This document shows, in pieces, positions 1,515 through 50,898 of a stretch of DNA of 50,898 nt (the stretch's first letter is position 1; each line of letters opens with the position of its first letter). The translations under genes were made by a program, and so were the position numbers. Source of the DNA: Thermoproteota archaeon. Lineage in GTDB: Archaea > Korarchaeota > Korarchaeia > Korarchaeales > Korarchaeaceae. Under the pieces are notes generated by a model. That model had not been told where the DNA came from. It saw only the letters and a list, made by a program, of their open reading frames with translations, and searched no databases. The stretch spans positions 1 to 50,898 of the forward strand of contig JAOZFH010000032.1 in assembly GCA_027491415.1 (NCBI GenBank). The letters run 5' to 3'.

Positions 1515-2708
1515 TCAGACGCCTTCAATCCCCAGGTCGCTCAATATATCCTTCTTGCTCCTGGCGGCCGGTCTCCTGATCCCTATCGTGGGCTTAGTGG
1601 GCTCCAGGGGACTCACCGCGGCCTCCCTCTCTATCTTCGCCTCCCTCACCACGCCTTCCAGCTCCTCTATGTAGGGCGAGGTCACCCCGGTGACGATGAG
1701 GAGTACCTGGACCACCCCCTCCAAGTCGTCCTCTATCCTGGCGCCCCAGATCACGTTTGCCTCCGGGTCCAGCGCGCTTACCACGGTCTCTACGACCCTC
1801 TTCATCTCCTGCAGGGACAGGTCCGGTCCGCACGTTATGTTCACCACGGCGGCCTTGGCGCCCGAGATGTCCGCTTCGAGCAGTGGGTTTGCGAGCGCGT
1901 CTTCCACGGCCTCAACGGACCTGTCCTCCCCCTCGCTCTCTCCGAACGCGAGTATAGCAGGACCACCGCGCTCCAGGACGGCTCTAAGGTCGGCGAAGTC
2001 TACGTTGATGAGCCCGGGCTTGGTCACCAGCTCAACGACGCCCTTGACCGACCTGGCCATTATCTCGTCCGCTATCAGGAACGCCTCGTGCAGGGGGCGG
2101 TCGCCGACCAGCTCCAGTATCCGGTCGTTGTTCACGATCACGACGGTGTCAGAACTCTTCAGGACGTTTGCGAGCCCCTCTCTGGCGATCTCGTTTCTCC
2201 TCCTCCCCTCGGCCTCGAAGGGGAGGGTGACCATAGAGACCACCACGGCCCCGAGCTCCTTCGCGACGCTCGCTATCACGGGGAGCCCGCCGGTGCCGGT
2301 CCCGCCGCCTAGGCCGGCCATCAGAAAGACGATGTCCGATCCGTCCAACAGCTCCCTGATCTCCGGCTCGCTCTCCTTTGCAGCCTCCTCGCCTATCTTG
2401 GGGTCCCCCCCAGCCCCGCTTCCACCACATAGCTCCCTTCCGAGGAGGAGCTTCCTGTCGGCGACGCTCTCTAAGAGGTGCTGGGCGTCGGTGTTGGCCG
2501 CCACGGTGACGACGCCCTCCAGCCCGAGCGCGTTCAGCCTGGTGACCGTGTTGCTGCCTGCACCGCCCACGCCCACGATGACTATCTTCGCCCTCACCCT
2601 CTCGAGGAACTCCCTGAGGTACTGGTCCTCCAGCGCCTCCCTGCGTCCTTCTGAGGCTCCTGTGGGCGGAGATAGGGCCCTTTTAGCTAACGACTTCACC
2701 TCAATCAC
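1515..2708 (-). CDS. ftsZ: Cell division protein FtsZ (copy 1)
   Basis: FtsZ is the tubulin-like GTPase that polymerises into the division ring. The 397-residue product has a ~35-residue N-terminal extension, the nucleotide-binding segment VIVGVGGAGSNTV, the tubulin signature GLGGGTGTGGLPVIA near residue 135, and the T7-loop region PGLINVDFADLRAV carrying the catalytic Asp. The C-terminal tail is short and basic (RRPAARSKKDILSDL), a likely partner-binding peptide. Starts are GTG at 2708 or GTG at 2699. It heads the ftsZ-secE-spt5-rpl11-rpl1 operon, an archaeal arrangement linking division to translation genes. A second, diverged ftsZ lies at 9923. Confidence 0.95.
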   Translation of the reverse strand: MIEVKSLAKRALSPPTGASEGRREALEDQYLREFLERVRAKIVIVGVGGAGSNTVTRLNALGLEGVVTVAANTDAQHLLESVADRKLLLGRELCGGSGAGGDPKIGEEAAKESEPEIRELLDGSDIVFLMAGLGGGTGTGGLPVIASVAKELGAVVVSMVTLPFEAEGRRRNEIAREGLANVLKSSDTVVIVNNDRILELVGDRPLHEAFLIADEIMARSVKGVVELVTKPGLINVDFADLRAVLERGGPAILAFGESEGEDRSVEAVEDALANPLLEADISGAKAAVVNITCGPDLSLQEMKRVVETVVSALDPEANVIWGARIEDDLEGVVQVLLIVTGVTSPYIEELEGVVREAKIEREAAVSPLEPTKPTIGIRRPAARSKKDILSDLGIEGV

Positions 2709-2745
2709 CTCACTAACTTACTCAAAACCGCGCGGTCCCGCCGCT

Positions 2746-2758
2746 CATATTAAATATG
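2746..2758. promoter_or_regulatory. TATA element between ftsZ operon and tRNA-Ala
   Basis: CATATTAAATATG is nearly palindromic and can act as a TATA box on either strand. It lies about 40 nt before the ftsZ start on the minus strand and about 45 nt before tRNA-Ala on the plus strand. It is the only AT-rich patch in this GC-rich gap. Confidence 0.55.
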
Positions 2759-2800
2759 GTGGTAAGCGATACGTCGAGCGCGGCGTTGCGCCGAGTCGGT

Positions 2801-2891
2801 GGGCCCGTAGCTCAGCCTGGTAGAGCGCCGGCCTTGCACGCCCCGCCAGGAAAGCCGGAGGTCGCGGGTTCAAGTCCCGCCGGGTCCACCA
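2801..2891 (+). tRNA. tRNA-Ala(UGC) with 14-nt intron
   Basis: The cloverleaf is complete: acceptor GGGCCCG/CGGGTCC with the G3-U70 pair that defines alanine tRNAs, D-arm GCTC/GAGC, anticodon stem CCGGC/GCCGG, T-arm GCGGG-TTCAAGT-CCCGC, and an encoded CCA at 2889-2891. The anticodon TGC is at 2835-2837. Bases 2839-2852 fit no tRNA position and form an intron at the standard archaeal site after nucleotide 37. Confidence 0.93.
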
Positions 2892-2914
2892 CACATCCCC
2901 CTCCCGAGGGAACC

Positions 2915-2920
2915 TTAATA
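2915..2920 (+). promoter_or_regulatory. TATA box of tRNA-Ile(GAU)
   Basis: TTAATA lies 28 nt before the mature 5' end of the tRNA, the usual archaeal spacing. Confidence 0.55.
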
Positions 2921-2947
2921 TTGGGTGGGCCTGTCGCCAGCGGTCGA

Positions 2948-3042
2948 GGGCCCGTGGCTCAGCCTGGCAGAGCGCCCGGCTGATAACCCATCTGGTGGTG
3001 GAAACCGGGAGGTCGCGGGTTCAAGTCCCGCCGGGCCCACCA
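2948..3042 (+). tRNA. tRNA-Ile(GAU) with 18-nt intron
   Basis: Acceptor GGGCCCG/CGGGCCC, discriminator A and encoded CCA. Anticodon stem CCCGG/CCGGG; anticodon GAT at 2982-2984; intron 2986-3003 at position 37/38. Acceptor, D-arm and T-arm nearly match the tRNA at 24585, which supports isoleucine identity for that one. Confidence 0.92.
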
Positions 3043-3066
3043 CCCATCTCCCGAGGGTGTCCCTCG

Positions 3067-4131
3067 TTGAGGCTCTGGGTCGACATAGTGAACTCACCCC
3101 ATGTCAGGCTCTTTGAGAGGTTCCTGTCCCTGTTCTCGTCGGATCTAGAGGAGGTATTGGTGACTACCAGAAGGTACGGGGTCCTCCCAGACCTCGTTCA
3201 AAGGCTGATCTCTCCCATTCTGGGCCAGCGCACAGAGATCCTCGTGGTCGGCGAGAGGGAGGCGGATCGGGTCGGAAAGCTGAAGTCCCACCTGCTCCGC
3301 ATCTTGGCCCTTGCAGACCTGGTCTCCGAGTTCGAGCCCGATGCAGCCGTCTCGAAGGCATCTCCCGAGCTCGCGAGGGTGGCCTTTGGACTAGGAGTCC
3401 CGTCGGTGATCGCAAATGACAACGATGAGAGCGCGTTCGTATGCAGGCTATCTCTTCCGCAGGCCGACTCGATAGTAGTCCCTGAGTCGTTTCCCGATCG
3501 AGTCATCTTGGCCAGCGGGGGATCACTGCGAGCGACGAGGAAGTTCCGGGGAGTTTTCGAGGTCGCGCACGTCCTTCAGCACTTCGATCGGGGGCCCTTC
3601 GAACCGGTTCGACCGGAGGACCTTGGGGTCGAGCCGGGCGGGTACGTGATCTTCCGGCCGGAACCCTTCGGAGCCTCTTACCTCACGGGGGCCACCAGGT
3701 CGCCCCAGTACCTCAGGGAGATTTCGCGCAGATACGACGTCGTTGTGATCCCAAGGGGACCGGAGGACGAACCTCTCTGGCGGAGGGAGGGCGCCAAGGT
3801 GGTGTCGCCGCCGGTCGACTTCCTGGACCTGGCGTCGCGGGCGGCGGCCGTCGTGGGGGCTGGCGGGACGATGACCCGCGAGGCCGCCCTCCTTGGGGTT
3901 CCCGCGGCGTCAGCCTTCCCCGGCAGGGAGCCCTGCGTCAGCCTTGAGCTTGAGCGGCTCGGGTTGATCTACAGGCTCAGTGACCCAGTAGACGTCCAAA
4001 AGTTCCTGGACCTCGCGAAAGACCGCGCGGCCTGGGAGCGGCGGGCCAGGGACTACATTCACTCTGCCGAGGATCCAGCTAGGGTCCTTTGGGAGGAGGT
4101 CAATCGCTTGGTCGAGCGCCGGACAGCTTGA
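3067..4131 (+). CDS. DUF354 family protein, glycosyltransferase-like fold
   Basis: The 354-residue product starts LRLWVDIVNSPHVRLF, matching the start of DUF354 proteins (typically W[IV]D..N.PHV), a family with a GT-B fold resembling UDP-GlcNAc 2-epimerase and MurG. The second Rossmann half carries AAAVVGAGGTMTREAALLGVPAAS, the usual nucleotide-sugar binding loop. The substrate is unknown. The TTG at 3067 is the start closest to the family N-terminus. It begins just after tRNA-Ile and its 3' end overlaps the convergent gene at 4100 by 32 nt. The neighbouring GlcNAc-1-P-transferase-like genes fit a role in cell-surface glycans, but that is inference. Confidence 0.8.
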   Translation: MRLWVDIVNSPHVRLFERFLSLFSSDLEEVLVTTRRYGVLPDLVQRLISPILGQRTEILVVGEREADRVGKLKSHLLRILALADLVSEFEPDAAVSKASPELARVAFGLGVPSVIANDNDESAFVCRLSLPQADSIVVPESFPDRVILASGGSLRATRKFRGVFEVAHVLQHFDRGPFEPVRPEDLGVEPGGYVIFRPEPFGASYLTGATRSPQYLREISRRYDVVVIPRGPEDEPLWRREGAKVVSPPVDFLDLASRAAAVVGAGGTMTREAALLGVPAASAFPGREPCVSLELERLGLIYRLSDPVDVQKFLDLAKDRAAWERRARDYIHSAEDPARVLWEEVNRLVERRTA

Positions 4132-24584: not shown

Positions 24585-24691
24585 GGGCCCGTGGCTCAGC
24601 CTGGATAGAGCGCCCGCCTTATATGGCGGCTCCCGCCACAAGCCAGGGGAAAAGCGGGAGGTCGCGGGTTCAAGTCCCGCCGGGCCCACCA
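24585..24691 (+). tRNA. tRNA-Ile(UAU) with 29-nt intron
   Basis: Acceptor GGGCCCG/CGGGCCC, D-arm GCTC/GAGC, anticodon stem CCCGC/GCGGG, T-arm GCGGG-TTCAAGT-CCCGC, discriminator A, encoded CCA. With the intron at the standard site after nucleotide 37 (24624-24652, which contains its own GGCGG-CTC-CCGCC hairpin), the anticodon is TAT at 24620-24622. Outside the anticodon stem it is nearly identical to tRNA-Ile(GAU) at 2948. Most archaea read AUA with a CAU tRNA bearing agmatidine, so a UAU anticodon is unusual. Confidence 0.85.
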
Positions 24692-50497: not shown

Positions 50498-50505
50498 TTT
50501 AAATA
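50498..50505 (+). promoter_or_regulatory. TATA box before a candidate structured RNA
   Basis: TTTAAATA in a GC-rich gap, with no start codon of a convincing gene downstream; expected start near 50527-50531. Confidence 0.6.
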
Positions 50506-50526
50506 CTCGGGCTGTGAAGAGGCTCG

Positions 50527-50695
50527 GGAGGGCAACTCCGCCGAAAGGCGGAAGCGGTCTCACCTCGGGCAACTGAGGAATGGGGTCGCTCTCCCACCCT
50601 CAAGGGGTCTCATTCCAATGTACTCTGCGCCTGAACAGGCTTTGCGGCCCTTCCAAGCTTAACGGGACCGCATCAGGCGCCGAGACCCCTCGACC
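50527..50695 (+). ncRNA. Candidate structured non-coding RNA, unknown class
   Basis: Downstream of TTTAAATA the gap between the radical SAM gene and the edge gene folds well. A 5' hairpin GGAG-GGCAA-CTCC (50527-50539) is followed by GCC-GAAA-GGC and by CCTC-GGGCAACT-GAGG (50563-50578), so GGGCAACT occurs in two loops. Then a long compound stem: GGGGTCTC (50604-50611) with GAGACCCC (50682-50689), GCGCCTGA (50627-50634) with TCAGGCGC (50673-50680), and TGCGGCCC with GGGACCGCA inside. It lacks RNase P, SRP, 5S or tRNA hallmarks. End position is a guess. Confidence 0.55.
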
Positions 50696-50702
50696 ATCGC
50701 AT

Positions 50703-50898
50703 TCAGAAGTACAGGTCCAGAGAGAGGTGAGAGAGGGCCCCGAGGACCGCGCCTACGGTTGCGCAGAACTCCGGGGTCAGGGGACCGCCGGGCCAAGAGG
50801 AGGCCCAGATCGCCTGGACCTCCTCCAGAGGGGACGTCAACAGGAGGTGGAGGCCGCTCAAGTCGAGCGGCCCCGACACCTCGCCTTCTAGCGCCCAG
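50703..50898 (-). CDS. C-terminal part of an unknown protein (runs off the edge)
   Basis: The last 65 codons of a minus-strand gene read WALEGEVSGPLDLSGLHLLL, TSPLEEVQAIWASSWPGG and PLTPEFCATVGAVLGALSHLSLDLYF (in pieces), ending in TGA at 50705-50703. The composition is that of a real protein, unlike the overlapping plus-strand frame. No family is recognised from this fragment. It faces the candidate RNA tail to tail. Confidence 0.65.
   Translation of the reverse strand, partial: WALEGEVSGPLDLSGLHLLLTSPLEEVQAIWASSWPGGPLTPEFCATVGAVLGALSHLSLDLYF

Follow-up and report, generated by a model that had tools for sequence, protein, structure and literature searches.

A duplicated family of structured RNA genes, absent from any catalogue searched, in two genera of one archaeal family

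The window analysed here – the whole stretch of 50,898 nt, contig C51 of genome G000 from a probable korarchaeon, with a G+C content of 63% – carries near its end an RNA gene that belongs to a family absent from any catalogue searched, a conclusion that is well supported. The gene has a paralogue in the same genome: we refer to the gene in the window as copy A and to the paralogue as copy B. Its most probable nature, in our judgement, is that of a stand-alone gene for a small noncoding RNA, composed of a constant 5′ junction and a copy-specific 3′ domain; it would act in trans, either as an RNP scaffold or as a regulatory RNA. The gene is placed by a promoter element and a predicted transcript:

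50498-50505, + strand: TATA box TTTAAATA, read from the sequence; its first base lies 28 nt before the first base of helix P1
50526-50690, + strand: predicted transcript of about 165 nt; the start is taken from the TATA spacing, the 3′ end from the limit of the conserved block

The sequence TTTAAATA occurs only three times in the 51-kb window, both strands counted. The same box precedes copy B, 29 nt ahead of its P1 (L006:960-989), and TTTATA stands 28 nt ahead of P1 in a homologue from another genus of the family, G002 (L009:1473-1501). An own TATA promoter is therefore found at a fixed distance from the RNA 5′ end in three lineages (28, 29 and 28 nt, counted from first base to first base). 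A distance of 28-29 nt is usual for archaea, and because it recurs in all three lineages transcription should start at P1.

The other end is suggested by comparison with a sister species, G001. Identity between G000 and G001 is 91.7% over the TATA region, 94.4% over the core and 98.9% over the 3′ rod (95.3% for coding DNA), and falls to 75% over the 12 bases just past 50690. The sister species retains the whole block, from TATA box to rod end, despite rearrangement of the intergenic DNA upstream of copy A, where the two genomes differ by an insertion or deletion of about 210 bases. Since the conserved block extends to the end of the rod and identity then drops, the copy A gene probably ends near 50690, a tentative 3′ end for which no terminator pattern was found. 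The predicted start (about 50526) and length (about 165 nt, to about 50690) are in line with the 150-170 nt guessed in a preliminary description of this DNA. The sole + strand ORF listed in the region (50580-50891) begins within the RNA; the downstream gene is convergent and ends at 50703, and its G001 orthologue reads through as a YdjM-like membrane protein.

The core common to all members is a three-way junction: P1, a GGYAAC linker, two hairpins mostly with GNRA loops, and the closing strand of P1. In copy A it is laid out as follows:

50526-50530, + strand: P1 5′ strand GGGAG; pairs with 50591-50595, 100% paired in five sequences
50531-50536, + strand: J1/2 linker GGCAAC (GGYAAC as consensus); almost unchanging across the alignments, and unpaired
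50537-50552, + strand: P2 hairpin of six pairs (50537-50542/50547-50552, 100% paired) with a GAAA loop
50553-50590, + strand: P3 hairpin, with a 10-bp stem (50553-50562/50581-50590), an AA bulge, an apical stem and a GCAA loop
50563-50568/50573-50578, + strand: P3 apical stem, read by eye, with the GCAA loop at 50569-50572
50591-50595, + strand: P1 3′ strand CTCCC, partner of 50526-50530
50597-50606, + strand: P4, a possible small hairpin CCC-TCAA-GGG; in the model, weakly supported (three pairs)

Loops vary among members: that of P2 is GCAA in copy B, and the P3-type apical loops elsewhere are GCAA, ACAA or GUAA(A). All strings named in the preliminary description were located at their coordinates, GGGCAACT at 50530-50537 and 50567-50574. 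Of the two hairpins said to bear this string, the second stands, capping P3 as a GCAA tetraloop, whereas the first occurrence lies outside any hairpin loop: P1 ends with its first G, GGCAAC forms the linker between P1 and P2, and its T opens P2. Beyond the core, copy A continues into a rod:

50604-50690, + strand: 3′ rod, specific to copy A; in the predicted fold, three helices with one-sided loops
50604-50611/50682-50689, + strand: rod helix 1, GGGGTCTC with GAGACCCC
50627-50634/50673-50680, + strand: rod helix 2, GCGCCTGA with TCAGGCGC
50643-50650/50664-50672, + strand: rod helix 3, TGCGGCCC with GGGACCGCA, with a bulged A

The long stem had been described as three consecutive perfect helices. 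All three strand pairs are present, but the third is imperfect (the bulged A) and the helices do not stack directly on one another, being separated by one-sided loops confined to the 5′ side (15/1 and 8/0 nt). P4 overlaps the first rod helix in copy A, so that the two are mutually exclusive and would compete. On paper, GGCTT (50638-50642) could form a pseudoknot with AAGCT (50655-50659), a candidate drawn from near-identical sequences. The rods of the two species differ by one substitution in 87 nt, located in a loop, and such near-identical sequences give no covariation information on rod pairing. As an observation in its own right, the copy A rod is better conserved between the species than coding DNA. 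The 3′ part of copy B folds differently, and that of the G002 homologue has little structure: family members thus have the 5′ domain in common and differ in their 3′ domains (a long rod in A, another fold in B).

DNA searches recovered copy B at C13:987-1082 of G000 (78%), and both copies in G001, 3.5 kb apart and in the same direction. A covariance model built from these four copies of genus g1 (G000 and G001), and hence trained without G002, identified the fifth member in G002 with an E-value of 1.1e-6. A second model, built from all five, gives the four g1 copies E-values of 5.7e-20 to 3.0e-18 (these copies having trained the model). In the remaining 26 phylum genomes it gave no match at E≤0.1 among at most 150 scored candidates per genome, a depth at which absence is not proven for G+C-rich genomes. 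Among the 29 phylum genomes sampled, the family is seen only in genera g1 and g2. Weak model matches in G004, G005, G006, G012, G013, G015 and G017 (14-21 bits) were rejected, their pairs being broken or, where checked, their sequence apparently coding. Pattern searches of genome and viral collections gave weak matches only – in Parabacteroides, Duganella, a Rhizobiales bacterium and two viral contigs – and these, at 21 bits or less, were likewise rejected; no match was found in phages and plasmids.

An independent small RNA gene is expected to show conserved structure with compensatory changes, and both were found. Over the 24 pairs of the five sequences, 99.2% of cells are paired; in nine pairs both partners have changed, and a further 18 pair types occur. 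None of 500 shuffles reached the observed values for pairing, double changes or pair types, while controls in which the structure was slid gave 0-3 doubly altered pairs. Six of the ten pairs of the long P3 stem are altered on both sides (98% of cells paired); P1 shows one double change (A-U to C-G), as does P2 (C-G to U-A). The alignment was fitted to the covariance model and hence leans towards the structure; the P1 and P2 changes are also visible in a plain MAFFT alignment. Because four of the five sequences belong to one genus, the signal derives largely from the comparison of A with B and from G002. The minimum free energy of copy A (−87.8, against −73.95, sd 4.87, for shuffles) corresponds to a z-score of −2.84, with one of 200 shuffles as good: covariation is much stronger evidence than this score. 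The preliminary description had proposed an unassigned structured RNA with a TATA box, and had named as counter-evidence an Rfam hit to a known class or a lack of both compensatory changes and a transcript. The nine doubly altered pairs in relatives, together with the lack of any Rfam match, support the proposal.

At the gathering level Rfam gave no family for the RNA in the window, and matches at relaxed E-values, in the window and at the homologue loci, were at chance level. Archaeal SRP RNA (RF01857) had no match in the window or at the homologue loci, RNase P RNA (RF00373) had none in the window, and neither ARAGORN nor Rfam called a tRNA or tmRNA at the RNA locus. With motif reading, these searches bear out the initial failure to fit the RNA to RNase P, SRP, tRNA, H/ACA or C/D RNAs, or a riboswitch. 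Elsewhere in the window lie a 104-nt tRNA recognised by Rfam and missed by ARAGORN (24585-24688) and a tRNA with an anticodon that ARAGORN cannot name (2948-3042); each probably contains an intron. Archaeal RNase P RNA is similar in being a single-gene structured RNA, but G000 has its own copy elsewhere (G000:C30, 99.8 bits). The Hgc RNAs of thermophilic archaea are stand-alone structured noncoding RNAs encoded in G+C-rich intergenic gaps, with functions unknown or found late. The present genes resemble them as G+C-rich intergenic RNA genes, but have no Rfam match to any of them, and their core is common only to relatives within the same family of the phylum.

Copy A follows a radical SAM gene on the same strand and faces the convergent YdjM-like gene. 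Copy B has a LigD 3′-phosphoesterase gene upstream and a convergent two-domain KaiC-like gene (named by eye). The G002 homologue has a divergent nitroreductase gene on one side and, downstream on the same strand, a GvpD/KaiC-like ATPase gene that starts 76 nt past the core. The KaiC-like genes near copy B and in G002 were considered as a conserved neighbour and rejected, since they look like different families (by eye and from Pfam). The KaiC-like gene by copy B (L006:1219-2694, − strand) remains intact in G000, but the matching stretch of G001 (L005 around 2467-3496) shows short frames only, none full-length seen, so that the gene there looks broken. No neighbour gene common to the copy A, copy B and G002 loci was found, which makes cis-regulation of one gene unlikely; moreover copies A and B precede convergent genes and so are not leaders.

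These surroundings bear on the alternative that survives best, a cis-acting leader or riboswitch whose junction binds a ligand and controls the downstream gene. The compact junction with its near-invariant linker nucleotides resembles an aptamer, the exclusive pairing of P4 and the first rod helix in copy A would suit a switch, and the ATPase gene of G002 is suitably placed. Yet a location in the 5′ leader of a same-strand gene is possible only for G002, opposite-strand genes following copy A in both species and copy B in G000, and even the G002 gene has a second TATA-like stretch ahead of it (by eye). Riboswitch classes gave no match; the closest is c-di-GMP-I-GGC (RF03167), with a fragment of 24 nt scoring 15.5 bits where the cut-off is 59. 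Like the present RNA, the c-di-GMP-I and GGC aptamers place a P2 hairpin of the GGGCAAnnCCGCC-GAAA-GGCGG type in a three-way junction, but no P3 tetraloop receptor was seen in the present family, and copies A and B lack a downstream gene in the same direction. We consider a riboswitch unlikely.

A second alternative arises from a property of the lineage itself. The SRP pathway is usually described as universal. Nevertheless, five genomes from three related genera (G000, G001, G002, G004 and G006) seem, from their sequences, to be without it (SRP RNA, SRP54 and FtsY). RF01857 scores above cut-off in 22 of the 29 phylum genomes, the exceptions being these five plus G009 and G028. The helix 8 pattern AGGYCYGGAARGGAGCAGCC, with two mismatches allowed, is absent from the five and present in G007 and G009 (in G009 at a contig end); G009 and G028 lack only a full SRP RNA match. 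The SRP54 M domain (PF02978) is present in 24 genomes and missing in exactly the same five, which also give only generic P-loop matches to the SRP54/FtsY GTPase domain (PF00448; best E 1e-4), whereas the remaining genomes all match strongly (E 2e-51 or better). Neither SRP54 nor FtsY was found in G000 with these two domains. The best GTPase-domain matches were judged by eye to be Mrp/ParA-like (G000 and G001), ArsA-like (G004) and Fe-S-ParA-like (G002) ATPases. A 15-nt helix 8 match at G000:C34 was put down to chance (it sits where an ORF ends, and the other strand is missing), and candidate SRP fragments at G000:C56, G001:C9, G000:C2 and in G004 had no Rfam SRP match. The five genomes are 96, 96, 78, 91 and 71% complete, and since genomes just 63-72% complete still have SRP54, incompleteness is a poor explanation. 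The apparent loss is read from SRP RNA, SRP54 and FtsY, with a single clade for the three genera as an assumption. No report of such a loss was found in the papers searched; the Korarchaeum cryptofilum entries of a 2010 survey record the presence of SRP RNA features, SRP19 and SRP54 (PMC2905702).

The RNA could be SRP RNA in radically altered form, or belong to a system that replaced SRP, in a lineage otherwise without SRP. It occurs only in g1 and g2; these genera and g4 account for all five of the 29 phylum genomes that lack SRP RNA, the SRP54 M domain and the SRP54/FtsY GTPases together, and copy A, a stand-alone archaeal RNA with a 5′ three-way junction, two hairpins and then a long rod, resembles SRP RNA in overall layout. 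It is, however, about half the length, with neither helix 8 (AGG..GGAA..AGCAGC) nor helix 6; its linker lies between P1 and P2, that of SRP RNA between helices 3 and 4; the rod is absent from copy B and G002; and the host genome offers no SRP54 to bind it. Tests with the Rfam model and the helix 8 pattern, and with an S-domain model built for the purpose and blastn, revealed no SRP RNA features in the RNA. Nor does the gene adjoin the SRP RNA neighbours of three relatives (G007, G008 and G022), and the RNA was not found in g4. With no SRP hallmark and none of those neighbours, the RNA is not classed as SRP RNA, and this alternative is less likely than a riboswitch. The co-occurrence may reflect common descent, which is the simpler reading; a functional link between the RNA and SRP absence is possible. 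A bolder version – that the RNA is part of a new RNP that arose in, and perhaps compensates for, a lineage in which the entire SRP pathway was lost – is more doubtful still.

A mobile or repetitive G+C-rich element without host function, a reading already disfavoured, ranks lower again: two copies 3.5 kb apart in G001 would fit, but the compensatory changes, the constant promoter spacing, the limit of two copies per genome, and the lack of a transposase in the stretches read and of matches in phages or plasmids all speak against it. Least probable is an atypical H/ACA or C/D guide for RNA modification. Such guides are abundant in archaea, and the length and hairpins are compatible, but none of the Rfam guide families reaches its cut-off; each arm is a continuous helix, and reading by eye gave no pocket in either P2 or P3, no ANA box following a hairpin and no C/C′/D/D′ set.

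If the RNA is, as we favour, a stand-alone molecule acting in trans, RNA polymerase would begin transcription with the G that opens P1, about 28 nt past the TATA box, and yield an RNA of about 165 nt. Its first 70 nt or so would fold into the compact three-way junction, the same in every member, which may serve as a folding and protein-docking module. The remainder, differing between paralogues, may be the part that meets the target, and the RNA would then work as an RNP scaffold or regulatory RNA in two versions per cell. The finding adds a stand-alone structured RNA family, duplicated within the genome, for archaea whose noncoding RNAs are little studied. If the absence of SRP holds in closed genomes, membrane-protein targeting in these cells becomes a testable question, for which the RNA described here is one lineage-specific candidate.
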